Assembly (NCBI GenBank): GCA_031271785.1
Contig: JAISUZ010000112.1
Coordinates: 1 to 64,000, forward strand
Length of the DNA: 64,000 bases
Direction: 5' to 3'
From: Fibrobacter sp.
GTDB lineage: Bacteria > Fibrobacterota > Fibrobacteria > Fibrobacterales > Fibrobacteraceae
Shown piece by piece: positions 1 through 53,012 of the stretch. The notes below the pieces were generated by a model. That model was not told the origin of the DNA and ran no database searches. It was given only the letters and a program-made list of their open reading frames with translations. Both the position numbers and the translations under genes were made by a program. Within the stretch, counting starts at the first letter, position 1. The number at the start of each line of letters is the position of its first letter.

Positions 1-288
1 TGAATAAGGTTAAAAAATTGAGGAAAAGGATCCTTAAATAGACCGTTCAAATATAGTTTCCTTTTTTCGATTTTAGAACTAAAAAAGCTAAAAACACTTT
101 CCGAAAAAAGTCGAAAAAACGATCGTTTTTTATGGTGCCTCGTTTTTCACTTATTTACCCCATTTTTTAATATGCCGTAAAATAAGCATTACCGCAGATT
201 TGGAAAATCTTTCATGCCTTAGCGAACTCAATTAATGCGGTAAATAAACAACGTCAATACGCTTGCGTGCCGACAATGTTTGCGGAGG
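1..288. other. Intergenic, 5' end of window
   Basis: No convincing gene. An 18-bp perfect palindrome of six A, ACGATCGT-type centre and six T lies at 114-131; it could be the terminator of a gene outside the window. A family B palindromic repeat follows at 190-241, and a type 2 composite repeat starts at 289. Short reading frames here (such as 280-477 and 456-830) are repeat sequence or overlap the glgM start. Confidence 0.6.
190..241 (-). repeat. Family B palindromic repeat, copy 1
   Basis: Terminal stem ACCGCA (191-196) pairs with TGCGGT (235-240/241). The interior carries the family core, TTGGAAAATCTTTCATG followed by AGCGAACTCAATT. Related copies lie near 3960, 25326, 25736, 38574, 38626, 41327 and 56772. 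Function unknown. Confidence 0.75.
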
Positions 289-35305: not shown

Positions 35306-36739
35306 GTGCCATCACTACCTATTGTATGTATTGTCGGACGCCCGAATGTGGGTAAGTCCTCCCTTTTTAACCGGATTCTCGGCCGGCGTGCCGCGGTGGT
35401 TTCCGATCGTGACGGCGTGACCCGCGATCGCCACTACCAAACGGCGGTTTACAAGCAAAGAGAATTCACGCTGGTCGATACCGGCGGATTCTTGCCCGAC
35501 GATTCCGTTGACGTACTCGCCGACAGCGTGCGCGCTCAAATTTTTGCCGCCATGAGCGAAGCGGATTTGATTCTTTTCATGGTGGATATCCGCGTGGGCG
35601 TTTCCGCGCTGGATTTGCAGTTTGCCCGCATGGTGCAGCGCCTTGACAAGCAAGTGATTTTGGTCGCCAACAAAAGCGAAAAAGAAACCGACCGTCAGGA
35701 AAACTGGTCGTTTCTCACGCTCGGTTTCGGACAACCGCGCACCATCAGCGCGCTGACCGGTTACGCCTGCCTTTCGCTTCTCGACGAAGTGATAGAACTT
35801 TTGCCGCATACCAAATCCGGAAAAGACCGCGAAACGCGCCCGATTCGCTTTGCGATTCTCGGCCGCCCGAACGCCGGAAAAAGCACGCTCCTCAACCGTA
35901 TTTTGGGAGAAGAACGCGCTGTGGTTTCCGATATTCCGGGCACCACCCGCGATTCCATCGACTGCCGGTTTGTGATTGACGGCACGCCGTTTGTCGTCAC
36001 GGATACCGCGGGCCTCCGCAAAAAAGCCCGTGTCTCGGACGAAGTGGAAACCTTCAGCAACATGAGAACGCTCGAAAGTATCCGCCGCTCCGATGTTTGC
36101 CTTTTAATGCTCGATGTCACGCGCGGATTTGATATTCAGGATTTCCGGATCATTGCCGAAATCCGCAAAGCCGGAAAAGGTTTAATTCTTTTGCTGAACA
36201 AATGGGATATTCTCCCCGGGAAAACGGAAAAATCGTTCGACCGTTTTGTAAAAGATATTTTGGAGCGCGATCCGATGCTCGAATGGGTCCCGATCCTTTC
36301 GATCAGCGCCAAAGAAGGACTCCGCATTCACCGCGTGATTCAGGAAATCAAAACCGTGTATCACAATACCCGCCGCGTTCTCGGCAGAGACCGCGTAGCG
36401 GAAGTATTTGCCGCGGCGGTAGAAAAAAATCCGCACCCGACGCGCCATTCGCGCCCGATCCGTTTGAATCGCGCCTGCCAGATTATGGTGGAACCGCCGG
36501 TAATTTCCATTGAAACGAAAACGCCGGAGTTTATCGACGAATCTTACAAGCGTTACCTGCTGAAACATTTTTTTGAAGAATTTCAGTTGCGCGGCGCCCC
36601 TTTACGTTTAAATTTTGATCAAAGATTAACTCTTCGAAAGGATGAAGAACTTGAGCAGTTTACTGAGTCTTCCAATAGCCTACCTCCTCGGATCCATTCC
36701 GTCGGCGGTGTGGATCGCAAAACTCGCCAAAGGCATTGA
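35306..36739 (+). CDS. der: Ribosome-assembly GTPase Der (EngA)
   Basis: 477 residues from a GTG start at 35306. Two GTPase domains in tandem, GRPNVGKSSLF with DTGG and GRPNAGKSTLL with DTAGLRKK, then a KH-like domain (about 350-445, RHSRPIRLNRACQIMVEPP). It acts in 50S subunit maturation. The reading frame runs about 30 residues past the usual end and overlaps plsY by 98 bp. An upstream in-frame ATG at 35171 would lie inside aroE and is rejected. Confidence 0.93.
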   Translation: MPSLPIVCIVGRPNVGKSSLFNRILGRRAAVVSDRDGVTRDRHYQTAVYKQREFTLVDTGGFLPDDSVDVLADSVRAQIFAAMSEADLILFMVDIRVGVSALDLQFARMVQRLDKQVILVANKSEKETDRQENWSFLTLGFGQPRTISALTGYACLSLLDEVIELLPHTKSGKDRETRPIRFAILGRPNAGKSTLLNRILGEERAVVSDIPGTTRDSIDCRFVIDGTPFVVTDTAGLRKKARVSDEVETFSNMRTLESIRRSDVCLLMLDVTRGFDIQDFRIIAEIRKAGKGLILLLNKWDILPGKTEKSFDRFVKDILERDPMLEWVPILSISAKEGLRIHRVIQEIKTVYHNTRRVLGRDRVAEVFAAAVEKNPHPTRHSRPIRLNRACQIMVEPPVISIETKTPEFIDESYKRYLLKHFFEEFQLRGAPLRLNFDQRLTLRKDEELEQFTESSNSLPPRIHSVGGVDRKTRQRH

Positions 36740-37346
36740 TATCCGCGAATACGGTTCCAAGAACGCGGGGCTTACGAATGTGTTCCGCGTTCTCGGCTGG
36801 AAACCCGCGATTCCTGTGGTAGTGATTGATCTTTTAAAAGGTTTTCTCGCGCCGACGATTGCCGCAGTATGGAACGCGCATACGGTCGCTGCCGGCGGTC
36901 CGGACTTTTTTTGGCTCCCGCTTGCCGCCGGCGTTTTGGTGATTCTCGGCCATAGCTTCACTTGCTTTGCCGGATTCCGCGGCGGAAAAGGCGTACTCAC
37001 GGCGCTCGGCGTATTTCTCGCGCTCATGCCGGTAACGGCTCTCGTGTGTTTAGCCGTTTGGGCATTGCTCACTTTCACAACCAAGTATGTGAGCGTGGGG
37101 AGCATCAGCGCCTGCGTGTGCCTTGCAGTACTTCCGGTCATTGGCTTTCTCAAACCGGACATTTATCCTGATAAAATTTCGGCAGGGCTTTTGATATTGT
37201 GCCTTGCCGTTGCCGTTTTTGTAATTGTAAAACATCGCGCCAATATTGTGCGGTTATTAAACGGAACGGAAAACGGATTTGGCTCTAAACGCCGGACGCC
37301 CAAAGATGAGCTGCCGGCGGCAGGATTCTCAAAGAAGGAATTGTAG
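36642..37346 (+). CDS. plsY: Acyl-phosphate:glycerol-3-phosphate acyltransferase PlsY
   Basis: 234 residues with about five membrane helices. The N-terminal AYLLGSIPSAVWIAKLAKG, GSKNAGLTNVFRVLG and GHSFTCFAGFRGGKGV are the three conserved PlsY motifs that face the active site. Makes lysophosphatidic acid, the substrate of PlsC at 20.7 kb. The ATG at 36642 abuts AAAGG; a TTG at 36651 has better spacing. The start lies within the der frame. Confidence 0.92.
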   Translation: MKNLSSLLSLPIAYLLGSIPSAVWIAKLAKGIDIREYGSKNAGLTNVFRVLGWKPAIPVVVIDLLKGFLAPTIAAVWNAHTVAAGGPDFFWLPLAAGVLVILGHSFTCFAGFRGGKGVLTALGVFLALMPVTALVCLAVWALLTFTTKYVSVGSISACVCLAVLPVIGFLKPDIYPDKISAGLLILCLAVAVFVIVKHRANIVRLLNGTENGFGSKRRTPKDELPAAGFSKKEL

Positions 37347-37348
37347 AA

Positions 37349-38356
37349 ATGAAAGTCACGGTGTTAGGAACAGGAGCTTGGGGGCTTACGCTCGGACAAG
37401 TGCTTTATGAAAACGGTCATCAGGTTTCTTTTTGGACTCACGCGCAAGAAGAAGTCGATCTGTTAACGCGGGAACGCGAATATAAAGACAAACTCCCGGG
37501 TATTATTTTCCCGAAAGAATTTCATTATACCACGGACATGGAAAACGCGCTCGAAGGCGCGGAAATGGTACTTTTTGTCATTCCTTCTCAGTTTATGAAA
37601 GGAGTTGCCGCCAAACTCGGCGCGTGGAAACCGGCTGGGAAAACCCCTACGGTTGTTTGCGCCACCAAAGGAATTTTAGAAGGCTCGCTCCAACGCATGA
37701 GCGAAGTGATATTGTCTCAAGTCTCCTGGCTCACTCCGGAAAAAATGGTAACGTTCAGCGGCCCTTCGCACGCCGAAGAAGTCGCGCGCAAAATGTACAC
37801 GGCGATCGTAGCGGCAAGTCCCGGCAAAGAAGCCGCGGAGCTGGTGCAACATGTTATGAGTTGCCCTTACCTCCGGGTTTACACCTCCGAAGATATAATC
37901 GGCGTAGAACTTTGCGGATCGCTTAAAAATGTCATCGCAATCGCAAGCGGCGTCCTTTACGGCATCGGCGCAGGCGACAACACACGGGCAGCGCTCATCA
38001 CACGCGGGCAAGCGGAAATGCGCCGCCTCGGCATGGCGCTCGGCGCAAACCCTCACACCTTCGCCGGACTCGCCGGCATGGGCGATTTAATCGTCACTTG
38101 CCTCTCCGAACATAGCCGCAACCGTTATGTCGGCGAACACATCGGCCGCGGAGAAACGCTCGAACAAATCTTAAGCGGCATGAAAATGGTCGCAGAAGGC
38201 GTCCCCTCTTGCCGCAGCGTCAAGGAACTCGCAGAGAAAGTCGGCGTGGAACTTCCGATTGTGAACGTTGTGTACGAAGTACTTTTCCACGGAAGAGAAC
38301 CGAACGAAGCCATTCAGGAACTGATGCTGCGCGAACTCAAACCCGAATTGGATTAA
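37349..38356 (+). CDS. gpsA: NAD(P)-dependent glycerol-3-phosphate dehydrogenase
   Basis: 335 residues. NAD motif VLGTGAWGLTLGQVL, CATKGILEG, SGPSHAEEVAR and the catalytic region LCGSLKNVIAIASGVLYGIG with GLAGMGDLIVTC. Supplies glycerol-3-phosphate to PlsY, encoded 2 bp upstream, so the plsY-gpsA pair is functional. Confidence 0.95.
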   Translation: MKVTVLGTGAWGLTLGQVLYENGHQVSFWTHAQEEVDLLTREREYKDKLPGIIFPKEFHYTTDMENALEGAEMVLFVIPSQFMKGVAAKLGAWKPAGKTPTVVCATKGILEGSLQRMSEVILSQVSWLTPEKMVTFSGPSHAEEVARKMYTAIVAASPGKEAAELVQHVMSCPYLRVYTSEDIIGVELCGSLKNVIAIASGVLYGIGAGDNTRAALITRGQAEMRRLGMALGANPHTFAGLAGMGDLIVTCLSEHSRNRYVGEHIGRGETLEQILSGMKMVAEGVPSCRSVKELAEKVGVELPIVNVVYEVLFHGREPNEAIQELMLRELKPELD

Positions 38357-39230
38357 ACTTGTTTTGACTTTTGGCGTGCCCCGGCGCATTCATATAAAAC
38401 CGGCATGAAAACCGCGCCGGGCCGGCGTAGCTCCGGGCTACCCGCTGGTCGGTGCTGCGCACTGCGCGCAAGCGCGCACCCTCCGCTTGCCTCACGCGAA
38501 GAAAAGGCATTCGTATATGCCTCCAAAAACATTGTCAGCACGCAAGCGTATTGACGTTGTTTTACCGCATCAATTAAGTACGTTCCGACATGGTAAAACT
38601 TTCCAAAAGTGCGGTGATACTTATTACCGCATCAATAGAATTGCCCGATTATGTAAGACTTTTCAAGTCTGCGGTGATGCTTATTTTACGGCATATACAA
38701 ACGCCTTAAAAATGTAAAATGCAACTCAAGTTCCTCGGGTATGAAATGTCGGGAATAGAAATGTGATTCCGGATTTCGATTCACAATTGAAACAGGACAA
38801 TAACGGCGGCAGGGGTCGAATATTTTCGACCCGGTTTTAGAGCGGAAAAACTTGTTTCCGTTACTGCGAGCCGAAGGCGCGGCAGTCCATTTTCTTGCCA
38901 TGGCGAGAGCATAGCTCGCGGCCATCGTTCCTCCTTGGATCGCTTCACGCGTTCACGATGACAAAAAGAGGGGGCTCCGATAACGGTGAGTTTTCAATAA
39001 CTGAAACATGTAAAACGTTTCAATAAGAACGTTCTAACAAAACAAAAAAATCGGCGCCGCTACCTTGTCCCATTTCCCAAGGTTTCCAAGTGAGAAGAAC
39101 AAACTCGTACGGGTTACTATCCCTCGCGCGTTAGTGTTCGCCACCGGAGAAAATAAGAATATTGAGCAGAAGAGCTTACAAACTCTAACCTTCGGTTATT
39201 ATATTTATAAGCTATGGAAAGCAGGTATTT
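38357..39230. repeat. Repeat island: composite, family B x2, family D, family C
   Basis: 38373-38520 composite copy (see its entry). 38574-38615 and 38626-38675 are two family B copies side by side, both ACCGCA...TGCGGT. 38687-38835 is family D, reverse complement of 25169-25310. 38858-38935 matches the first half of family C at 3774-3838. From about 38960 to 39230 no repeat or gene is seen; it must hold the promoter of the DUF4321 gene. Confidence 0.75.
38373..38520 (+). repeat. Composite structured repeat, chimeric type 1/type 2 (copy 5)
   Basis: Starts GGCGTGCCCCGGCGC 16 bp after the gpsA stop. The body is type 1 (CTCCGGGCTACCCGC, small hairpin TGCGCGC-aa-GCGCGCA at 38463-38478), but the distal end is type 2 (CTCACGCGAAGAAAAGGCAT with the GGCAT/ATGCC hairpin). 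This shows that the modules recombine. Confidence 0.8.
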
Positions 39231-39551
39231 ATGACCCGTAAAAATGAATTAGGAAAACTGATCCTCTTTATTTTTCTCGGACTCCTCATCGGAGGAATCC
39301 TCGGAGAGAGCCTCGGGCTTCTGTTCGGAGAAATCGGAAAAGCGATCAACGGCTCTTACGACAACGTAGTGCGTTCGTTTTTTGTCGCGGACTGGCCTTT
39401 AAGTTTTAACTTCGGCGTAGGCGAAAAACCGGTAGTCCTCGACCTTTACATGATCAAACTCTCATTTGGTTTCGGCTTAAAATTAAATACGGTAAGTATT
39501 CTCGGAATGCTTGTTTCCCTTTATATTATGAAGTGGTCTGGAGAACGCTAG
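39231..39551 (+). CDS. DUF4321 small membrane protein
   Basis: 106 residues. Two hydrophobic segments (about 9-28 and 75-100). GKLILFIFLGLLIGGILGE and KLSFGFGLKLNTVSILGMLV match DUF4321, a family of unknown function found beside cell-envelope or division genes in many phyla. Starts 2 bp before gatA and likely shares its transcript. Confidence 0.85.
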   Translation: MTRKNELGKLILFIFLGLLIGGILGESLGLLFGEIGKAINGSYDNVVRSFFVADWPLSFNFGVGEKPVVLDLYMIKLSFGFGLKLNTVSILGMLVSLYIMKWSGER

Positions 39552-39553
39552 CA

Positions 39554-40972
39554 ATGGATTCTATTAAAACGCTCGGGCAAAAATTAACCGACGGTTCCGT
39601 AACAGCAGAAAAACTAACGCAAGAGGCACTTGAAAAGGCAAAAGCAAAATCAAGCTTAAACGCCTTTATCTCTCTTCTCGACGAAAGAGCCCTGGAGCAC
39701 GCCCAAGCTTCGGACAAACGAAGAGCCGAAGGAAAATCCCTCGGTATTTTGGACGGCGTTCCGGTAGCGGTAAAAGACAATTTGTGCTTAAAAAACACGA
39801 GAACCACCGCAGCTTCGCATATTTTAGACAAGTTCATTTCCCCTTATACCGCCACCGCGCTTGAAAAACTCGAAGCCGCGGGCGCCGTCATTATCGGGAA
39901 AACGAACATGGACGAATTCGCCATGGGTTCCTCCAATGAAAACTCTTACTACGGCGCGGTCAAAAACCCGCTTGACGAAACCCGCGTACCGGGCGGCTCT
40001 TCCGGCGGCTCCGCAGTCGCCGTCGCCGCCGAAATCGTACCCGCCTCGCTCGGCTCCGACACCGGAGGCTCCATTCGCCAACCGGCGGCCTGCACCGGAA
40101 CAACGGGGTTAAAACCTACTTACGGGCGCGTATCCCGTTACGGATTAATCGCCTACGCCTCAAGCCTCGACCAAATCGGGCCTTTCGGCGCGAATACGGA
40201 AGACTGCGCTCATTTGCTTTCCGCCATCGCGGGCATTGACCCTCACGATAACACCACAAGCACGCGCCCCGCCGAAGATTTCTCCGCAAAACTCGGCGAA
40301 GGCGTTCAAGGAAAAGTCATCGGCGTACCCAAAGAATACTTCGACGACCCGGCCCTTGACAAAGAATGCAAAACCGCCATTCAAACAACGCTTGAAAAAC
40401 TCGAAAAAGAAGGCGCCAAGCTCCGCGAAATATCACTCCCGCAAATCAAACATGCCGTCGCGAGTTACTATATCATCGCCGCCGCAGAAGCCTCAAGCAA
40501 CTTAAGCCGTTTCGACGGCGTGCGTTACACCTACCGCAGCCCAAACGCCAAACAACTCTTTGACTTATACGCCATGTCGCGCTCCGAAGCCTTCGGAAAA
40601 GAAGTACAGCGCCGCATTCTCTTGGGCTCCTATGTATTAAGCTCCGGCTTTTACGATGCCTATTACGTACAAGCTCAAAAAGTACGCCGCCTCATCACCG
40701 ACGACTTCAACAACGCCTTCAAAACCTGCGATGTCATAGCAAGCCCCACCATGCCCGGGTTGCCGCTGCAAACGGGAATGAACGAAACAGACCCGATGGC
40801 GGTATATCTTTCTGATATTTACACGGTGAGCCTAAACCTCGCCGGACTTCCGGGAATATCACAGCCTTGCGGCACAGCGCATCGGTTCCCCGCAAGCATC
40901 CAATGGATCGGCAAACCGTTTCAGGAAACGGAACTCCTTTCCGTAGCCGCCGCCACCGAAAAAGTACGCTAA
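39554..40972 (+). CDS. gatA: Asp/Glu-tRNA(Asn/Gln) amidotransferase subunit A
   Basis: 472 residues of the amidase-signature family. Catalytic Lys74 in PVAVKDNLCL, Ser149 in GGSSGGSAVAVAAE and the nucleophile Ser173 in SDTGGSIRQPAACTG match the GatA triad by spacing. Releases ammonia from glutamine for Gln-tRNA synthesis with GatB and GatC, not encoded nearby. The ATG at 39554 follows the DUF4321 stop by 2 bp. The tRNA-Gln at 49.0 kb is a likely substrate. Confidence 0.95.
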   Translation: MDSIKTLGQKLTDGSVTAEKLTQEALEKAKAKSSLNAFISLLDERALEHAQASDKRRAEGKSLGILDGVPVAVKDNLCLKNTRTTAASHILDKFISPYTATALEKLEAAGAVIIGKTNMDEFAMGSSNENSYYGAVKNPLDETRVPGGSSGGSAVAVAAEIVPASLGSDTGGSIRQPAACTGTTGLKPTYGRVSRYGLIAYASSLDQIGPFGANTEDCAHLLSAIAGIDPHDNTTSTRPAEDFSAKLGEGVQGKVIGVPKEYFDDPALDKECKTAIQTTLEKLEKEGAKLREISLPQIKHAVASYYIIAAAEASSNLSRFDGVRYTYRSPNAKQLFDLYAMSRSEAFGKEVQRRILLGSYVLSSGFYDAYYVQAQKVRRLITDDFNNAFKTCDVIASPTMPGLPLQTGMNETDPMAVYLSDIYTVSLNLAGLPGISQPCGTAHRFPASIQWIGKPFQETELLSVAAATEKVR

Positions 40973-40991
40973 AATACTTTGTCCGTAACAT

Positions 40992-41258
40992 GGCGTGCCC
41001 CGGCGCCACCACCGTCACCCTGATCCTGAAACAAGTTCAGGATTCAGCATCCAAAAAAAGAACAAATTTGGATGCTTTGTGCATCAGTATCCACTATAAA
41101 GCGCCGGGTCGGCGTGTCTCCGGGCTACCCGCCGGTCGGTGCTGCGCACTGTGCGCTTCGCGCACACCCTCCGCCTGCCTCACGCGTCTTCGCGCGATTC
41201 CAACACTTTTTTCAAAACCGGAGCGGCTTCCAGCCTAAAGGTTTTGAAAAAAGTATTG
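40992..41258 (+). repeat. Composite structured repeat, type 1 with conserved-loop hairpin (copy 7)
   Basis: Starts GGCGTGCCCCGGCGC 19 bp after the gatA stop. The first stem (CCCCGGCGC/GCGCCGGG) has its loop filled by about 93 bp that include the palindrome ATCCTGAAAC/GTTCAGGAT. Then the type 1 body with hairpin TGTGCGC-ttc-GCGCACA (41150-41166), then a 19-bp hairpin (41201-41219 with 41240-41258) around the invariant 20-nt loop. Confidence 0.85.
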
Positions 41259-41907
41259 AGAACCGCGCTTAGGGATAAAAAATTACTGCCAAGTTCCTCG
41301 GGAATTGCAAACAAGGAATAAGTATCACCGCAGATTAGGAACGTTTTTCATGCCGGATTGCTCTATGATAATGCGATAACAAGTATCGGCATACTTTTAA
41401 AAAATCTTACATAACCTAACGAACTTAATAGGTACGCAAATAGGGACTTGGGACAAAGTTGCGATGCACACTTAAAAAGTTTTACATACAAATACGATCA
41501 ATATTGATGCATAAATGGGGAATAGAGAACTACACACACCATTTCCCGAAACTTTCATCACCCAATACGCTATAAAGAATCCATACAAAATACGAAACTA
41601 AGAAAAGCATTACATATTTATAATATAATAGAATACAAATAAAGAAAAAAGCTTATCTTTACAGAAAGCAGTTGGCGGACGATATGCGTACACAACTGCG
41701 TATATTTAGAAATTGTCGGCAATGCGGGACTGCATAGCATATTTTCCAAGCGAAAAAGATAGAGCGTTGCTGACAACTTTGGCGAAATCCGACAAAATGA
41801 ATGAGAATGGTGCAAAAATATTTTATAGATAGTTGTTTTTTTCCGTATCCGCTTCACTCAAATTTCATTGTCAATTCTACGTCGAAAAATGGAAAAAATC
41901 CTTAATT

Positions 41908-41937
41908 TTGCGTAAACATTCAGAGTGATTGTAATAT
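41908..41937 (+). promoter_or_regulatory. Likely promoter of the DUF262 pair
   Basis: TTGCGT (41908-41913), 18-bp spacer, TAATAT (41932-41937), 24 bp before the ATG at 41962. By pattern only. Confidence 0.45.
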
Positions 41938-41961
41938 ATTGAAAAACAAAAAGATAAAAAT

Positions 41962-43659
41962 ATGGCAAAAAACAATATTGAATTAAAAACGGTCAGTGAA
42001 TTGTTGGGAATGAATTTTTTTATTCCGTCATATCAGCGTGGGTATCGTTGGACAAAGCAACAGGTTAATGATTTGCTTGATGATATTTGTGATTTCAAAC
42101 CGCTCAAAGACGAATGGTATTGTTTACAACCTCTTGTGGTTAAGCAAAAAAGCAAAACCGAATGGGAAGTTATTGACGGACAGCAACGACTGACAACAAT
42201 CTTTTTGATTATCCACTATTTTAACGAAATGTTGGTCAGAAAACAGAAAATTAGCGAGCCGATTATTGCATATCAGACAAGAAATAACAGTTACCAATTT
42301 TTGAAAGATATGAAAGCTGAAGACGATAACAGCGTAATAATAAACGAATTAAATATTGATTATCAACATATTTCTTCTGCGTATCAAGCAATCAATGATT
42401 GGGTAACTGAAAAGAAAAAAGGCAAATTTGATGAAAACGATTTTCAGTCCAAATTCAAAGAAAAAACAAAAATTATTTGGTACGAAACTGACCCAACGCA
42501 AGACGGTCGAGATATTTTTTCTCGTATCAATATGGGAAAAATTCCTCTAACTAATGCTGAACTTATAAAAGCATTGTTCCTGAATAGTTCTAATTTCAAG
42601 ACAGAAAACAGCGTTGATGAAGAACGCATACGCTTGAAACAGTTGGAAATCGCAACCGAATGGGATATTATTGAAACCGATTTGCACAATGAAGAATTTT
42701 GGCTATTTATAAACCAAGAAGAAAACAATACGGAAACTCGCATTGAATTTCTTTTTGAATTGCTTGTCGGAAAATCCGACAACACAGAAGATAATTATTT
42801 CACTTTTAGAAAATTCAACGAGAAATTTACAGAGAACACCCAAAAAGTCATTTCAGAAAATTGGAAAGAAATAAAACGCTGTTTTCAAACATTGCAAAAT
42901 TGGTTTGAAAACAGAGAATTATATCATAAAATCGGTTTTTTAATTACGGTTGGCGAAAATATTAATGTTTTGATAGACAAATCACAAGAGAAAAATAAGG
43001 AGAGTTTTATAGATTTCATTGACGAAAAAATTGAAAGCAAATTTACTAATGTTCAAATAGATGAAGTCGGATATAAAAATAGCGACATAGTAAGAAAAGT
43101 GTTGTTATTGCATAATATTCAAACTTTGTTGAATAACAAAAAAGAAAATTCTCGTTTCCCATTTAATCGCTATAAAAAAGAGAAATGGGATATTGAACAT
43201 ATTCACGCAGTTGCAACCGAAAAGCCTGTAATAGAGCAACACCAAAAAGATTGGTTACAGCAAGCAAAAGAATTTATAGATGCAGAACAGACTGATTTGA
43301 TAAATAAAATTGATAATTACTCAAAAGAAACCTTTGAGCAATTATTTGATGAAATTTTGAATTATTTTAATGAAAACAGAAAACACGAAGATATTGACGA
43401 TTTATCAAATCTTGCTTTGTTAGATAAAGGGACAAATAGAAGTTATAAAAATGCCGTTTTCCCTGTAAAACGAAAAACTATTATTGAAAAAGAAAAGGCA
43501 GGAACATTTGTTCCAATTTGCACAAAAAATGTGTTTATGAAATATTATAGTCCAAAAATTGAACAAATGACTTTTTGGGGCGAAACCGATAGAAACGAAT
43601 ATTTTAGCGATATTAAAACAGTTTTAGAAAATTATTTGCCAAAGGAGGATAAACAATGA
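41962..43659 (+). CDS. DUF262-DUF1524 (GmrSD-like) protein
   Basis: 565 residues. N-terminal DUF262 ParB-like NTPase: FIPSYQRGYRW (about 17-27) and VIDGQQRLTTIFLI (about 71-84), then SRINMGKIPLTNAELIKALF. C-terminal DUF1524 His-Me nuclease: WDIEHIHA at about 410 and LSNLALLDKGTNRSYKNAVF at about 483. The usual HxxP proline after the first His is absent. Proteins of this build include the type IV restriction enzyme GmrSD and the nuclease SspE. Much more AT-rich than the neighbouring genes, a sign of transfer. The next gene overlaps it by 4 bp. Confidence 0.88.
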   Translation: MAKNNIELKTVSELLGMNFFIPSYQRGYRWTKQQVNDLLDDICDFKPLKDEWYCLQPLVVKQKSKTEWEVIDGQQRLTTIFLIIHYFNEMLVRKQKISEPIIAYQTRNNSYQFLKDMKAEDDNSVIINELNIDYQHISSAYQAINDWVTEKKKGKFDENDFQSKFKEKTKIIWYETDPTQDGRDIFSRINMGKIPLTNAELIKALFLNSSNFKTENSVDEERIRLKQLEIATEWDIIETDLHNEEFWLFINQEENNTETRIEFLFELLVGKSDNTEDNYFTFRKFNEKFTENTQKVISENWKEIKRCFQTLQNWFENRELYHKIGFLITVGENINVLIDKSQEKNKESFIDFIDEKIESKFTNVQIDEVGYKNSDIVRKVLLLHNIQTLLNNKKENSRFPFNRYKKEKWDIEHIHAVATEKPVIEQHQKDWLQQAKEFIDAEQTDLINKIDNYSKETFEQLFDEILNYFNENRKHEDIDDLSNLALLDKGTNRSYKNAVFPVKRKTIIEKEKAGTFVPICTKNVFMKYYSPKIEQMTFWGETDRNEYFSDIKTVLENYLPKEDKQ

Positions 43660-45716
43660 GTGAAAATAAACAATTTGATGAATTAACTTTTTGGCAACTA
43701 CTTGCTAAAACAAGTGTAGAAATTCCAATTATTCAAAGAGATTATGCACAAGGTCGTGAAAATCAGCAGAAAATTCGTGATAAGTTTTTAAAAGCACTTT
43801 ACGAGGCTCTTACGGAAAATCCTGTTGAGTTGGATTTTGTGTATGGTAGTAAAGAAAACGGCATTTTACAACCACTTGACGGGCAACAACGCTTGACAAC
43901 ATTATTTTTGTTGCATTGGTATGTCGCTACAAAAGAAAGTAAATTAGACGAAAGCGCAAAAATACAATTAGCAAAATTTACCTATGAAACTCGCACAAGT
44001 TCTCGTGAATTTTGCAAAGAATTAGTTGAAAAAGGAATTATTTATGGGCAACTTTTAGAAGTTGATAAAGAAAAAAACATTACAGAAGAAAATCGTTTTT
44101 CAAAAACGATTAAAAATACAGCGTGGTTTGTTGCTACTTGGGAAAAAGACCCGACTATCTCGGCAATGTTGAGAATGTTAGACGCTATTCACGCAAAATT
44201 CAAAAGCGACATAGCAGATTTATGGGAAAAATTAACAGACGAACAAGCAATTTCATTCTTGTATGTGAAATTGGAAAACTTTGGACTTTCAGACGATTTG
44301 TATATTAAAATGAATGCACGAGGCAAGCAACTTACGCCTTTTGAAAATTTCAAATCTCAATTTGAAAAACATATTGAAATCAACAAGTTTGAAAAAAACA
44401 TTACCAATTCGGAGGAACAATTTGCACATAAAATTGATACCGTTTGGACTGATTTATTTTGGAAATATCGTGGCGACGATGGATTGATTGACAATGAATT
44501 GATAAATTTTCTTGCAGGTGTAGCGATAAGTTATTATGCGGAAAAATACGATAGCAGTCAAAAAGAAGAAGTTAAAAATAGAATGCAATTTTTAGCAAAC
44601 CCGCCAAAAGACGAAAAAGGAAAACCTTCTCTTCCTGATATTGCACCCGAAGATTTTTCAACAAAAGGGGCTTTTCAATATTTGGTTGATTGCTTGAAAG
44701 TGTATGAAAATAACCATAAAGCCAAAACTAACACAACGCCTTTGTGGTCTTATTGTGATAAAACTTTGTTTGAAGATTTAATAAATGTAAGCGATGCGAC
44801 ACAGCAACGCAGAGTTTTGTTTTATGCTCAAACTGAATATTTGTTGAAAAATCAAACTTTTTCGCAAAGTAGTTTTAACGAATGGATACGGGTTGTTCGG
44901 AATTTAGTAGAAAATGCTTATTCGGACAATTGGAATATTGATAATATGATAAATCTAATTAGACTTGTTCATAGTTGGTCGGATAATTCAAATGACATTT
45001 ATTCGTTTTTATCGACATTAAATATTTCTAAAGTTTCTATTGCAAAAGAGCAAGTCAAAGAAGAAATTGAAAAAGCAAAAATAATTCTTGAAAATCAAGA
45101 TAATAAACAGATAATTCAAGCAACAGAAGATATGAATTTCTGTAAAGGAAAAATTGATTTTGCTTTATATTGTATTGATTACGACATTGACAATAAGCCG
45201 ATTGCGTCAAGTTTCGACAAGGAAAAGTTAAAGAAAATATACGATGTATTCGAGAAGTATTTGTTAGGCGATGATGTGAGCAATGATTTTCGCAGAGCAT
45301 TTTTTACAATACAAAACAACGATTTTTATGATTATTGGCCTACTTCTTGGCTTTTTGCAGTTGATGAACCCAAAAGAAAAATAATCGAAAACATAAATGA
45401 TTTGAAAAATTATTTTGTGTTTAGAGGAAAAAATAATTGTAATATTTCTAAAAATAATCTTGCCTATTTCAAAGAGTTAATTTTGCAATTATCAACAAAA
45501 GACATTGACACTTTGATTAGTGATTATATTTTGACACCGAACTTTGCTAATTTGCCGAATTGGAAACAACGAATAATAAAAGAAAAAAACTTGCTTGACC
45601 ATAGCAAGAAACATTATATCGCAATAAAGCGAGATGATAGTTGCTGTTGGTTAATTCCGAGCAGTAAAGTTGGAAACAATGAAAATGGGAGAAAACAATT
45701 AAAAAAAATAGAATAA
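43656..45716 (+). CDS. Large DUF262 protein, partner of the preceding gene
   Basis: 686 residues. N-terminal DUF262 with EIPIIQRDYAQGRENQQKI (about 18-36), LQPLDGQQRLTTLFLLHW (about 70-87) and KMNARGKQLTPFENFKSQFE. The C-terminal about 450 residues are helical and show no DUF1524 HNH motif. Translationally coupled to the first gene (ATGA overlap; AAAGGAGG just upstream), equally AT-rich. I infer a two-component system in which both proteins carry a DUF262 NTPase but only the first a nuclease. Function untested. Confidence 0.85.
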   Translation: MSENKQFDELTFWQLLAKTSVEIPIIQRDYAQGRENQQKIRDKFLKALYEALTENPVELDFVYGSKENGILQPLDGQQRLTTLFLLHWYVATKESKLDESAKIQLAKFTYETRTSSREFCKELVEKGIIYGQLLEVDKEKNITEENRFSKTIKNTAWFVATWEKDPTISAMLRMLDAIHAKFKSDIADLWEKLTDEQAISFLYVKLENFGLSDDLYIKMNARGKQLTPFENFKSQFEKHIEINKFEKNITNSEEQFAHKIDTVWTDLFWKYRGDDGLIDNELINFLAGVAISYYAEKYDSSQKEEVKNRMQFLANPPKDEKGKPSLPDIAPEDFSTKGAFQYLVDCLKVYENNHKAKTNTTPLWSYCDKTLFEDLINVSDATQQRRVLFYAQTEYLLKNQTFSQSSFNEWIRVVRNLVENAYSDNWNIDNMINLIRLVHSWSDNSNDIYSFLSTLNISKVSIAKEQVKEEIEKAKIILENQDNKQIIQATEDMNFCKGKIDFALYCIDYDIDNKPIASSFDKEKLKKIYDVFEKYLLGDDVSNDFRRAFFTIQNNDFYDYWPTSWLFAVDEPKRKIIENINDLKNYFVFRGKNNCNISKNNLAYFKELILQLSTKDIDTLISDYILTPNFANLPNWKQRIIKEKNLLDHSKKHYIAIKRDDSCCWLIPSSKVGNNENGRKQLKKIE

Positions 45717-45898
45717 CAGAGTGGAGTCTGCAGTTAACGAGCAGTTTAGTGCAAGCGGGAGCATAACTCACCCGATAATTCACGCTGATTTTCCATTCAA
45801 TTGAGCATTAGTGAACCCCACAAACGCTAAGCCATCTCAACGTTATGTTCCTACACATATAAATTAAGACAATAACAACCCATAAACCAAAAACCGTT
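45717..45898. other. Intergenic after the DUF262 pair
   Basis: No gene. GCATAAC at 45761 and GTTATG at 45842 are an outer complementary pair about 86 bp apart, but the interior does not fold well. It could be the border of the acquired segment. Confidence 0.35.
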
Positions 45899-46239
45899 CT
45901 AAACTCTTAACTTCGGATTATTGAAATGCCGTTCCGCATCGCGGAACGTTTTCTTTTGAACAGACTGAAGAAAAGCCTCTTGTAAATCCACTCCGGATTG
46001 ATTGGCAAGACAAATTAACACAAAGAGAATATCCGCCATTTCTTCCGGAATTTTTTCGGCAGATTCTCCCGCCTTAAAACTCTGATCGCCGTAAGTCCTT
46101 GAAAACAACCGTGCGAGTTCGCCGACTTCCTCCATCAGCTGCGCCAGGTTGGTCATCTCGCCGAAATAACGGACTCCATATTTTCGAATCCATTCATCAA
46201 CAAGTTGCTGCGCCCCGCGGAGCGAAAGATCGTCGGCCA

Positions 46240-46240
<1 letters not shown>
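45899..46240 (-). CDS. MazG-like nucleotide pyrophosphohydrolase
   Basis: 113 residues. Metal-binding EEVGE in LMEEVGELARLFSR and EEMAD in IPEEMADILFVLICLANQ are the all-alpha NTP pyrophosphatase signature; QQLVDEWI at the N-terminus fits the short MazG-like group. Hydrolyses nucleoside triphosphates, possibly non-canonical ones. The ATG shares a base with the guaB stop, so it is coupled to IMP dehydrogenase. Confidence 0.9.
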
Positions 46241-48302
<2,062 letters not shown>

Positions 48303-48323
48303 AATTCTCCTTAAATAAAACAC

Positions 48324-48352
48324 AAAAAGACCCGCTTGCGGCGAGCCCTTTT
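48324..48352 (-). terminator. Terminator/attenuator between rplY and pth
   Basis: On the minus strand AAAAGGGCTCGC pairs with GCGGGTCTTTTT (12 pairs, three G-U) and ends in the T run. Lies 20 bp after the rplY stop and 21 bp before pth, so it may only partly stop transcription. Confidence 0.6.
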
Positions 48353-48371
48353 ATGATAAATCCGTTAAGAC

Positions 48372-48959
48372 TTACTTGGAAGCGCCCGCCGGCTGCTCTT
48401 TATTTGCTTTGGCCTTTGAAATGGTATAGATAACAGTACGTTCCTGAGAAACGAGTTTGTTACCGCTCAAATCAAGATCCTTTGCATAAAAAGTAGTTCC
48501 TGCTTTCGCATCCGAAACATCGATTTCGATAGAAGCCGGGATTTTGGAAGGCATGCAGGAAAGCTTCAAATAGCGATTTTCCTGAGAAAGCATACCGCCT
48601 TCCGTTTTCACGCCCACCGGAATTCCGGAAAGATTCACCGGAATACGCACGGTCACCGGAGAATTTTCTTCGATTTTCATAAAATCGATGTGCTTGATTT
48701 CTTGAGAAATCGAATCTTTCTGGTAAACATAAATCAGCGCCGGATTTCCTACTTTACCGTCAATTTCGAGATCTAAAAGGGTGTAACGCTTTCCGGGTGC
48801 TAAAACCTTGTGAAGATCGGCGGCATTGACGCTGATGCTGACAGGCTCTATCCCCTTACCATAATAGACAGCCGGAACGGAGCCGGCTTTGCGCATACGG
48901 GCCGGTTCACGACCTGCGCCTAACACTCTAGAGGTTGCTTTGAGCTTTGTGAGTTCCAT
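48372..48959 (-). CDS. rplY: 50S ribosomal protein L25 (Ctc form)
   Basis: 195 residues. N-terminal 5S-rRNA-binding L25 domain (LTKLKATSRVLGAGREPARM, RKAGSVPAVYYGKG) plus the C-terminal TL5/Ctc beta domain (about 95-185). TTTGGAG precedes the ATG. In the usual bacterial order with pth downstream and tRNA-Gln and ispE upstream. Confidence 0.94.
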   Translation of the reverse strand: MELTKLKATSRVLGAGREPARMRKAGSVPAVYYGKGIEPVSISVNAADLHKVLAPGKRYTLLDLEIDGKVGNPALIYVYQKDSISQEIKHIDFMKIEENSPVTVRIPVNLSGIPVGVKTEGGMLSQENRYLKLSCMPSKIPASIEIDVSDAKAGTTFYAKDLDLSGNKLVSQERTVIYTISKAKANKEQPAGASK

Positions 48960-48983
48960 GATTTCTCCAAATAAAAAATCCTA

Positions 48984-49055
48984 TTGGGGTAGCTGGATTC
49001 GAACCAACGAATAACGGAATCAAAATCCGTTGTCTTACCACTTGACGATACCCCA
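48984..49055 (-). tRNA. tRNA-Gln (anticodon TTG)
   Basis: Read on the minus strand: acceptor TGGGGTA/TACCCCA with discriminator A, D loop AAGTGGTAA, anticodon loop GATTTTGATTC with TTG, T arm GTTGGTTCGAATCC. CCA is not encoded. The 3' end is 24 bp before the rplY ATG, so it is probably processed from a common transcript with ispE and rplY. Confidence 0.95.
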
Positions 49056-49119
49056 TAGGGAACCCAAAATTAGTTTAATTTCCTCTTTTTTAAAGGGGAG
49101 AATTCTGAAATTTTTCGAA

Positions 49120-49965
49120 TTATTCCGGAAAACCGGAGAAAAACTTCGTCACCGTGCAAAAACGAACCCGCCCCTTCAGTTTCCGGGAAAAATGAAAAGC
49201 CTGAAACTCATTTTCAAACAGCCCGAAAACGGAAGCGCCGGAGCCGGACATCAACGCCTGAAAGGCGCCTGCGCTTAAAAACTCTCTTTTGAGAACCTCG
49301 ATTTCCGGGTAAAGCGGAAAAATAGATTCCTCAAATTTATTGAAAAGCGGGCGTTCTTTTAACGAAAATTCCTGCGACTTAAACTCTTCCCAGCGCGCCT
49401 CACCCGAAGGAACAATCCCCGAATACGCCTCTTTGGTGGACACAAAACAGTCCGGAGTCGCAATCAAAACGGAGGTATTTGCGGAGCGGAACGAAACCGG
49501 AGTCAAACGGTCACCGATGCCTTCCGCATACGCGCTACCGCCGGTCACCAAAAACGGAACGTCCGCGCCGAGGCTTGCGCCGAGCTTTTCCATTTCCGGC
49601 GCGGAAAGGTTTAAACCCCACAGTCTGTTTAAAATCCGGAGAGTTGCCGCCGCATCGGAACTCCCGCCGCCGAGACCCGCGCCGAGAGGCAAATTCTTCA
49701 CGAGCCGGAGCCGCGCGCCTGCATTTACTTTATATGTATTCTTCAAAAGTTGAGCCGCCCGGTAAACAAGGTCGGATTCCACCGGATACTCCTGAGGCAC
49801 GCTGTACACAAGCGTAATTTCACCCGAAAGATCCGGTTCCGCCTGGAGCTCATCTCCGGCATAAACCGTTTGAAAAAAGGTACCGAGATCGTGGTAACCG
49901 TCCTCGCGTTTCCGGAGAACATCTAAAAAAAGGTTGATTTTAGCAGGAGCAAATTCGGTAATCAT
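49120..49965 (-). CDS. ispE: 4-diphosphocytidyl-2-C-methyl-D-erythritol kinase
   Basis: 281 residues of the GHMP kinase family. ITEFAPAKINLFLDVLRKRE at the N-terminus, ATP loop LPLGAGLGGGSSDAAA (about 90-105) and ALMSGSGASVFGLF at the C-terminus. Fourth step of the MEP isoprenoid pathway. The ATG at 49965 is used because family homology begins there; a 15-residue longer start at 50010 exists, and neither has a clear ribosome site. Confidence 0.94.
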   Translation of the reverse strand: MITEFAPAKINLFLDVLRKREDGYHDLGTFFQTVYAGDELQAEPDLSGEITLVYSVPQEYPVESDLVYRAAQLLKNTYKVNAGARLRLVKNLPLGAGLGGGSSDAAATLRILNRLWGLNLSAPEMEKLGASLGADVPFLVTGGSAYAEGIGDRLTPVSFRSANTSVLIATPDCFVSTKEAYSGIVPSGEARWEEFKSQEFSLKERPLFNKFEESIFPLYPEIEVLKREFLSAGAFQALMSGSGASVFGLFENEFQAFHFSRKLKGRVRFCTVTKFFSGFPE

Positions 49966-50113
49966 AGGAATAAATATAACTTTATCGTAAAATCTAACGA
50001 TTCTTTTCATTTTTTCTTTCGTTTACCCTAAAAAAAATGTAGTTTCTATCTTTCTTTTAAACAGGCAGTCCCCTATGGTTTTGCGGGAAGCCTTTTTTGT
50101 TTTTGGAGATAAA

Positions 50114-51055
50114 ATGATCGACCCGAAACGCCACTTGTTGCGACTGAATGATTGGAGCGAAGAACGCATCCTTGAAACGGTCGATATTGCCATGCGCTTA
50201 AAAAAAGAAATTCACGAAGGAAAACCCTCTACACGTTTCCATGGGCAAACCATCGGAATGTTTTTTGAAAAACCTTCCCTCCGTACAATCACCACATTCC
50301 AAGTCGGGATTCACCAGCTCGGCGGCGCCGCTGTTATTTTGGATCCCACCTCTATCGGGCTCGGAAAGCGTGAAAGCATTAAAGATGTCGCCCGCTGCCT
50401 CTCCCGCTGGGTAAACGCGCTTGTGGTGCGCAGTTTTAAGCAGGAACTGTTGGAGCAACTCGCCGAACACGGTTCGATTCCCATCATTAACGCCCTTACC
50501 GACGATTACCACCCCTGCCAGGCAATTTCTTTTGCCCAAATGTTTTTGGAACAGTTCGGCACACTCCGCGGAAAAACCGTAGCGTTTATCGGCGACGGCA
50601 ATAATGTGGCGAACTCCCTCACCACTCTCGCTTCCAAAGTCGGAATGAATTTCACTCTCGCCTGCCCCAAAGGCTTTGAACAACCGAAAGCCGTTATTGA
50701 CGAAACCGCCGAAGGTTTCAAACGCCACGGCACCAAATACCGCGTTTTCAACGACCCGAAAGAAGCCGTCAAAGACGCCGATATTCTTTACGGCGACGTA
50801 TGGGTGAGCATGGGGCAAGAAGGCGGGAAAGATGCCAAACAGGCGTACTTCCTTCCGTTCCAAATCAACGATGAATTACTCTCGTACGCACCGGCGCACT
50901 GCATGGTGACTCACTGCCTTCCGGCGCACCGCGGCGAAGAAATTACCGACAGCGTAATGGACGGAAACCGAAACCTGAGTTACGAAGAAGCGGAAAACCG
51001 CCTGCATGCCCAAAAAGCCGTTCTTTGGCAGTTAATGAGCCCGACCGACAAGTAA
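50114..51055 (+). CDS. argF: Ornithine carbamoyltransferase
   Basis: 313 residues. Carbamoyl-phosphate motif SLRTI (Ser55-Leu-Arg57-Thr-Ile59) in place of STRTR, DDYHPCQAISFAQ for HPxQ, and MVTHCLPAHRGEEI with the HCLP catalytic Cys that marks ornithine specificity. GGAG at 50103 sets the ATG at 50114 over an upstream ATG at 50075. Makes citrulline in arginine synthesis. Converges with miaA, 2 bp apart. An N-acetyl- or N-succinyl-ornithine carbamoyltransferase is less likely given HCLP. Confidence 0.9.
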   Translation: MIDPKRHLLRLNDWSEERILETVDIAMRLKKEIHEGKPSTRFHGQTIGMFFEKPSLRTITTFQVGIHQLGGAAVILDPTSIGLGKRESIKDVARCLSRWVNALVVRSFKQELLEQLAEHGSIPIINALTDDYHPCQAISFAQMFLEQFGTLRGKTVAFIGDGNNVANSLTTLASKVGMNFTLACPKGFEQPKAVIDETAEGFKRHGTKYRVFNDPKEAVKDADILYGDVWVSMGQEGGKDAKQAYFLPFQINDELLSYAPAHCMVTHCLPAHRGEEITDSVMDGNRNLSYEEAENRLHAQKAVLWQLMSPTDK

Positions 51056-51057
51056 AC

Positions 51058-51894
51058 TCAAGCCGAAATCTGATGCCGGTTCCACGTACGCTGACGGCGC
51101 GTGTATTGCCACTGCCGTTGTAAAATCTGTCCGCGAATCGCTTTAAAATCCGTTCCGTGCTCCAAATATTCCCGGAGTTCCGCATAGCCTAAACTCTCAA
51201 AAGCGGGGCACGTTTTCGGATAGACTTTAGACAAATTCTCTACTTCCTCAAGCCACCCGGCAGCGATCATCGCCTCAAAGCGCGCGGCTTGCCGCGCACG
51301 GAGTTCCGGAGCCGGAAGGTCGAGAAGCCGCGTTTCGATTGCCCCGAGGCCGCCCACCCGGTGACGGGAAAGCGAAGAAAATAATTCCTTTGTTTGTTCG
51401 TAAACTTCAAGAACGCGCCAAATACGCTGCGCGTCCCCTTCTTTGATTTTAAGCATCGCCTCCGGATCAATTTCGGTAGCGCGTTTGTATTGAGAAAGCA
51501 ATCCCTCGCTTTCTTTTTCGGCTTTCAGGCGTTCGCGAATTTCAGGCGAAGGCTTCGGGAGCGCCGGGAGCCCTTCCGAAAGGGATTTCAAATAAAGTCC
51601 GGAACCGCCGACAATAATAAAGTTTGTCTCAGGCGCCGCCGCTAAAACGTCTTTCACCTGCTCACAAAAAAGCCCTGCCGAATAAGATTCCCGGGGTGAA
51701 AAAAAATCAACCAAATGATGTTTCACCGCCGCGCGTTCTTCCGCCGTCGGCTGCGCCGTCCCAATGCGGAAACCCTCGTAAACCTGTCTTGAATCCATAC
51801 AGATTACTTCCGCTTGCCGTTCTTTCGCAAGTTTCATTCCGAGTTCCGTTTTCCCGACCCCTGTGGGGCCAACCAAAGCAAATAAAATCGGCAT
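51058..51894 (-). CDS. miaA: tRNA dimethylallyltransferase MiaA
   Basis: 278 residues, slightly short for the family. P-loop LVGPTGVGKTELGMKLA, DSRQVYEGFRIGTAQPT, IIVGGSGLYLKSL and C-terminal RQWQYTRRQRTWNR. Adds the isoprenyl group to A37 of tRNAs reading U-starting codons; the donor DMAPP comes from the pathway of ispG and ispE. Start codons of miaA and the next gene are 32 bp apart. Confidence 0.94.
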   Translation of the reverse strand: MPILFALVGPTGVGKTELGMKLAKERQAEVICMDSRQVYEGFRIGTAQPTAEERAAVKHHLVDFFSPRESYSAGLFCEQVKDVLAAAPETNFIIVGGSGLYLKSLSEGLPALPKPSPEIRERLKAEKESEGLLSQYKRATEIDPEAMLKIKEGDAQRIWRVLEVYEQTKELFSSLSRHRVGGLGAIETRLLDLPAPELRARQAARFEAMIAAGWLEEVENLSKVYPKTCPAFESLGYAELREYLEHGTDFKAIRGQILQRQWQYTRRQRTWNRHQISA

Positions 51895-51926
51895 AATAGC
51901 CCCCAATCTAATTATATTTTCAGCGA

Positions 51927-53012
51927 ATGAAAAACTTACGGCATTTGATCATCCTTCTTTTCGTGGTCGGAATTTTTATCGGGCTCGGACTTTCGCTCCC
52001 GCGCCTCATGAATCACCAAACAAACGCTCCCGAAATCACGGAAAACCTTTCTTCCGCCGAAGCCGAAATCGATACGACTCCTTATCTTCAAAAACTCACC
52101 GAAGAAATTCCAGTGATCAAAATTCACCCGGCCCGAAAAAACCGGAAAGAAATTTGGATGCTCGGAAAAGGAATCTCGCTCCCCAATTATTTATTGCGCG
52201 CTCAAAATCACTTGAACAAATTCCAAGGCAAAGTTCTCCGTATGGAAGAAATTTTCCCAAACCGCGAAGCGCAAGCCGCCGCCTTTGACTTTCTCACTCC
52301 CGAAGGCGACACCATGCAGGTGGAACTTCATATTTCGGATTCCTTTCTCGACAGCGCCTCGAAAATCGCGATTCTTTTTCAAGCGGATTCGCTGAATATT
52401 CCGCTTTTGAGCCGTTTAGAGACGCTCGATTACCCCTACGCGTTACTGATTACGCCCTTTGACACCGGCAAAACCTTATTTTCCGACCTGGACCGCTTAC
52501 AAAATAAAGAACTTGTCGCCTGGCTCCCCATGGAATCGCACTCCTTGCAAGCCAACCGCTTTTCCAACAAAACCATTTCCATTCACCATACCGAACAGGA
52601 TATTAAGGAAACCATCCAGCAAGCTCACGCCAAAATGCCTTCCGCGATCGGCGCTGCGACCCGCATGGGAGAAAGAGCGGTAGAGCATCCGCAATTATTA
52701 AACGCCGTTTTCAAAGCGCTTCGTTCCGAAAGGTGGTGGTTTATGGATTTAACCGAAAGCCGAACCTCAAAAGTGAACGAAACCTGCCAAAACTTTTCAT
52801 TTCGCTGCCCGGAAGCCTCGATTTACAACACGCAAAAAACCTTGGATCAATTTATCGACGGTGAATTGCGGACGGCTTCGCGCACAGGGAGCGTAATTCT
52901 CGTACTCCCGCTTCACGAAAAATCCTTAAACGCTCTCGCGGACATCAAAACAAAAGCCTCTGCCCGCGGAACGGAAATTGTAAAACTTTCAAATATCATC
53001 ACGTACGAATAG
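51927..53012 (+). CDS. Divergent polysaccharide deacetylase (YibQ-like)
   Basis: 361 residues. N-terminal membrane anchor (about 5-25), spacer, then the divergent polysaccharide deacetylase fold (PF04748, about 145-355): LITPFDTGKTLFSDL, VAWLPMESHSLQA, AIGAATRMGERAVEHPQLLN and WFMDLTESRTSKV. Envelope protein; E. coli relatives are near envC, but here it precedes pdxJ. Activity on a glycan is not established. Confidence 0.82.
   Translation: MKNLRHLIILLFVVGIFIGLGLSLPRLMNHQTNAPEITENLSSAEAEIDTTPYLQKLTEEIPVIKIHPARKNRKEIWMLGKGISLPNYLLRAQNHLNKFQGKVLRMEEIFPNREAQAAAFDFLTPEGDTMQVELHISDSFLDSASKIAILFQADSLNIPLLSRLETLDYPYALLITPFDTGKTLFSDLDRLQNKELVAWLPMESHSLQANRFSNKTISIHHTEQDIKETIQQAHAKMPSAIGAATRMGERAVEHPQLLNAVFKALRSERWWFMDLTESRTSKVNETCQNFSFRCPEASIYNTQKTLDQFIDGELRTASRTGSVILVLPLHEKSLNALADIKTKASARGTEIVKLSNIITYE

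Follow-up and report, generated by a model that had tools for sequence, protein, structure and literature searches.

The literature leaves open by what means GmrSD-type enzymes recognise modified phage DNA and why a second, nuclease-free DUF262 protein is indispensable to some of them (PMC12409362). A locus of two adjacent DUF262 genes, only the first of which carries a DUF1524 nuclease domain, raises the question of this partner again in a 64,000-nucleotide stretch of Fibrobacter DNA (hereafter, the window; Table 1). The initial annotation regarded the locus as a candidate two-component defence system in which a nuclease is paired with a nuclease-free DUF262 protein, and this reading fits the evidence presented here, including the strict co-occurrence of the two genes. 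Its further proposal, that the design differs from those described, does not hold, because two-gene GmrSD-like systems have already been published under their own names from Vibrio cholerae, namely TgvAB in 2024 (PMC11411939) and GrwAB in 2025 (PMC12137116), the latter with the same architecture and gene order. Most probably, the pair is a horizontally acquired Type IV (modification-dependent) restriction system of the GrwAB type, made up of two proteins.

Table 1. Features of the two-gene locus and its surroundings (nucleotide positions refer to the window, residue numbers to the respective protein)
Feature	Position	Strand	Description
Gene 1 (GrwA-like)	41962–43659	+	565 aa
Gene 2 (GrwB-like)	43656–45716	+	686 aa
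ATGA start/stop overlap of gene 1 and gene 2	43656–43659	+	
AT-rich insertion	41300–45890 (ends approximate)		between gatA (39533–40972) and mazG/guaB (45899–47706)
gatA–guaB junction	40972–46240		corresponding loci in other genomes: L079, L074
Protein 1, layout			N-terminal DUF262/GmrSD_N NTPase, middle region, C-terminal DUF1524 His-Me nuclease
Protein 1, DUF262 motifs	25–26; 72–76; 186–190		QR; DGQQR; FSRIN
Protein 1, nuclease residues	413; 483; 492; 497		H413 (within WDIEHIH), N483, N492, N497
Protein 2, layout			N-terminal DUF262/GmrSD_N, then about 450 residues without Pfam family or nuclease motif
Protein 2, DUF262 motifs	25–34; 75–79; 216–220		IIQRDYAQGR; DGQQR; YIKMN
Protein 2, conserved C-terminal residues	412; 416; 470; 473; 491; 498		R412, N416, E470, K473, E491, G498

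Both open reading frames were intact and overlapped by 4 nt, as initially described, and we infer that the ATGA sequence couples their translation. In relatives, the distance between the two genes ranged from −56 to +15 nt, with the plasmid-borne locus L028 (+100) as the sole exception. The assignment of an N-terminal DUF262 to both proteins was borne out by Pfam matches to GmrSD_N above the cut-off (protein 1: E = 8e-34, protein 2: E = 2e-21) and by the DGQQR motif in each. The restriction of DUF1524 to the first gene was likewise evident at the family level, with GmrSD_C matched by 15 of the 20 aligned protein-1 family members (best 5e-9) and by 0/20 members of the protein-2 family; the match of protein 1 itself was below the threshold (E = 0.0097). 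The four nuclease residues of protein 1 were invariant in the 20-member alignment (A2), and the spacing of nine residues between the two asparagines was kept in all but one member of the aligned family. Protein 1 thus combines a DUF262 with QR and DGQQR motifs and a DUF1524 with the H...N...N arrangement, as in the GmrSD superfamily. Its profile matched solved structures, including SspE (6jiv, 1e-14), 20yv (1e-16), 9jfl (6e-16) and 7p9k (2e-4), and PADLOC 2023 returned partial matches at the DUF262 level to HEC-06, Orf5 and SspE. The locus is real, intact and well conserved, ordinary but well supported.

Among the three DUF262 motifs of GrwAB, the partner carries QR and DGQQR, which were invariant or nearly so in relatives of both proteins, whereas its third motif follows the pattern YxKMN, with the tyrosine in every relative but one. 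Because this motif is not FxxxN and V. cholerae GrwAB was compared through its published description, the GrwAB-type assignment is very probable rather than proven. The pair could instead represent a sister family to GrwAB, performing the same two-protein modification-dependent cutting with a protein-2 C-terminal region not homologous to that of GrwB and with another target, such as a different DNA modification, a phage protein or a structure. The tyrosine in place of phenylalanine points in this direction, as does the case of TgvA, which demonstrates that partners can be unrelated outside DUF262 (PMC12137116), and the comparison with GrwB was made through its published description. However, the gene order and the long C-terminus of unknown function are as in GrwB, the motif positions are similar, and the many phyla spanned are expected for a system present in approximately 1% of genomes; we consider a sister family unlikely.

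The proposed check of conserved co-occurrence gave a consistent result: gene 2 was never alone, and gene 1 lay directly upstream of it in all 59 places where it was found, comprising nine in the phylum of the window, 28 in Bacteroidales, 10 on plasmids and 12 on IMG/VR contigs. In the phylum of the window (167 genomes in the set), nine full-length protein-1 genes and nine protein-2 genes occurred in the same nine genomes and were adjacent every time. The protein-1 family was well bounded there, given that scores fell from 1e-169 to 1e-30 at the next-best matches. In the 393 Bacteroidales genomes, 27 of the 28 protein-2 places adjoined protein 1; at the 28th (G265), a contig break divides the locus, leaving the protein-1 halves on two contig ends. 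Protein 1 was found without protein 2 at three Bacteroidales places (G223, G324 and G361), all of which were fragments or at contig ends. The pair had the same order in 12/12 IMG/VR contigs and in all 10 plasmid loci that were inspected, which came from six phyla. The two genes are an obligate, horizontally acquired pair.

The two protein families also evolved in a correlated manner, with a mirror-tree correlation between their distances of r = 0.86 that none of 10,000 permutations reached, to which the shared descent of the hosts also contributes. In a tree of DUF262 domains, protein 1 and protein 2 each formed a supported clade, both apart from TgvAB-like pairs. In a Bacteroidales draft genome (G434:C152:4811-8509; L086:1312-5010, − strand), a single open frame of 1,233 aa joins the nuclease half of protein 1 to protein 2, an apparent natural single-ORF fusion for which a sequencing error is an alternative explanation. 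Abortive infection and toxin–antitoxin modules, in which the nuclease would attack the host chromosome upon infection and protein 2 would restrain it, characteristically have an obligate partner and overlapping genes as well, and filamentous, non-dividing cells have been reported in GrwAB-protected cultures (PMC12137116). Nevertheless, we regard such a module as very improbable here, since the partner is required for defence in GrwAB and TgvAB, phages escaping GrwAB had changes in DpdA, and growth kinetics showed no arrest of the kind typical in abortive infection (PMC12137116).

The initial description of about 450 residues without a recognisable motif at the end of protein 2 was accurate, as no Pfam family besides GmrSD_N was matched by any of the 20 aligned family members. 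Protein 2 had no match in PADLOC 2023, searches of PHROGs and NCBIfam yielded nothing useful, and relatives of protein 2 were not found in the phage records searched. A degenerate nuclease in protein 2 was considered and rejected, because its C-terminal half and the nuclease half of protein 1 could not be aligned (hhalign probability < 1%). The NTPase motifs kept in both proteins, together with a separate set of conserved C-terminal residues in protein 2, suggest that protein 2 participates actively and is not a decayed copy. That gene 2 is a duplicate of gene 1 that lost its nuclease and persists as a passenger without a role of its own is hardly credible: the two proteins do share DUF262 (profile comparison E = 5e-11), but the NTPase residues of protein 2 are invariant across its 20-member alignment, its C-terminal region does not resemble the nuclease half, it forms a separate, fully supported clade that is always kept with gene 1, and the R86A substitution in its GrwB equivalent abolishes defence (PMC12137116). 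The initial suggestion that protein 2 may act as a sensor or regulator is reasonable but conjectural.

The base composition and surroundings of the pair indicated its acquisition as an insertion. The GC content of the pair was 30.9%, 10 sd below the mean of 49.4% (sd 1.8, minimum 44.3) in 3,755-base segments outside it, in agreement with the earlier description of an AT-rich pair. The 5′ neighbour is gatA, and the 3′ neighbour is mazG–guaB on the opposite strand, consistent with the core operon noted previously. A genome of the same family (G149) has gatA and guaB in convergent orientation, separated by an empty junction of approximately 220 bp, which identifies the pair as an insertion; another relative (G097) carries 8 kb of unrelated genes at this position. 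The gatA–guaB junction is thus a variable insertion site, empty in one genome, occupied by the pair in the window and by other genes in a third. The repeat island reported beside the pair was reduced to one copy of a dispersed GC-rich repeat at approximately 41101–41186, and no tandem repeats adjoined the pair. This repeat of approximately 85 bp is > 90% identical to a copy at 38414–38498, so that the two copies flank the gatA region, and it may be a genome-wide intergenic repeat. No known defence genes adjoined the pair in the window, no hsd genes were near it, and no ssp or BREX neighbours were seen among the open reading frames of 36000–52000. In the plasmid-borne relatives L022, L028, L029 and L060, a WYL-domain gene and/or a DnaQ-like 3′–5′ exonuclease gene adjoined the pair; neither is present in the window. 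The nearest relative of the pair was found in a Bacteroidales bacterium contig (L004) with 31% GC, which agrees with horizontal transfer. Both the sharp AT-rich island and the plasmid-borne relatives, which come from six phyla, are consistent with a mobile defence system. Elsewhere in the same genome, a second defence locus (L039; G000:C66:3708-6551) encodes a DUF262 protein with AAA ATPase and PLD-like partners and matched PADLOC NsnA (5e-109), NsnB (6e-79) and NsnC (3e-64) over nearly the full length.

Returning to the GrwAB-type reading, the pair is very likely to cleave phage DNA that carries chemical modifications, by analogy with GrwAB, TgvAB, BrxU and SspE, in which NTP binding and hydrolysis by DUF262 and the sensing of modified DNA are combined with cleavage by DUF1524 (PMC12409362). 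Proteins 1 and 2 would assemble into a hetero-oligomer in which the contacts probably lie in or near their DUF262 domains, and both would bind and hydrolyse NTP. The complex may detect a modified base, such as sugar-modified hydroxymethylcytosine or 7-deazaguanine, in phage DNA as it enters the cell, after which the DUF1524 domain of protein 1 would cut the DNA. Protein 2 might provide substrate recognition, license the nuclease through the state of its NTPase and through the C-terminal region that it alone possesses, or do both. That defence depends on both genes, on the NTPase motif of each protein and on the nuclease, and that modified phage DNA is the target, is carried over from the studied systems and would presumably apply here. 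It is also conceivable, if somewhat doubtful, that the two proteins form an asymmetric DUF262 heterodimer, with the large, conserved C-terminal region of protein 2 reading the modification and licensing the nuclease of its partner, and that the Y-motif lineage is a GrwAB sister system directed at a different modified-DNA target. With regard to the question of the second protein, the pair and its relatives reveal a strictly obligate partner whose evolution follows that of the nuclease even between distant phyla, and the invariant C-terminal residues of protein 2 and the one apparent natural fusion offer testable starting points.

Among known systems, single-protein enzymes such as GmrSD, BrxU and SspE resemble protein 1 in combining DUF262 and DUF1524; however, a single protein suffices in these enzymes, whereas the present pair always encodes a second, nuclease-free DUF262 protein, and SspE and BrxU are lone proteins beside ssp or BREX genes. 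TgvAB shares with the pair two DUF262 proteins, one with DUF1524, and requires both for a modification-dependent activity (PMC11411939). In contrast to the present pair, in which the order is reversed and the partner is long, TgvAB places the partner gene first and, in its founding case on VPI-2 of V. cholerae, lies within a Type I RM operon, neither of which was found at the locus; TgvA is also unlike GrwB outside DUF262 (PMC12137116). TgvAB-like pairs (L040–L043, L057–L058), which fell into separate clades in the DUF262 tree, look common in the phylum of the window, with paired hits in several other genomes. In these pairs, a short nuclease-free DUF262 gene precedes a longer gene that also encodes DUF262, and several of the pairs carry the nuclease motif IEHF.PQ.

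GrwAB, encoded by VC_00274 and VC_00275 in V. cholerae A1552, provides the closest likeness. GrwA consists of DUF262 and DUF1524, GrwB of DUF262 and multiple unknown domains in a long C-terminus, and defence needs both genes and both NTPase arginines (PMC12137116). Phages are restricted by the system if their DNA contains sugar-modified hydroxymethylcytosine or 7-deazaguanine, and phage escape mutations lie in the DNA-modification enzyme DpdA (PMC12137116). The present pair was likened to it by published architecture and residue positions. The nuclease gene comes first and the adjacent long partner second, as in all 59 places; both proteins begin with DUF262, and pairs occur in many bacteria. 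The key residues of GrwA (R81, H431, N521 and N530) and GrwB (R86) (PMC12137116) find counterparts in R76, H413, N483 and N492 of protein 1 and R79 of protein 2, with the two nuclease asparagines nine residues apart in both nucleases. A difference lies in the third DUF262 motif of the partner, YIKMN here and FxxxN as written for GrwB. Apart from its strictly obligate, co-evolving partner and the starting points this offers, the locus is one more carrier of the published two-gene design and not a new kind of defence.
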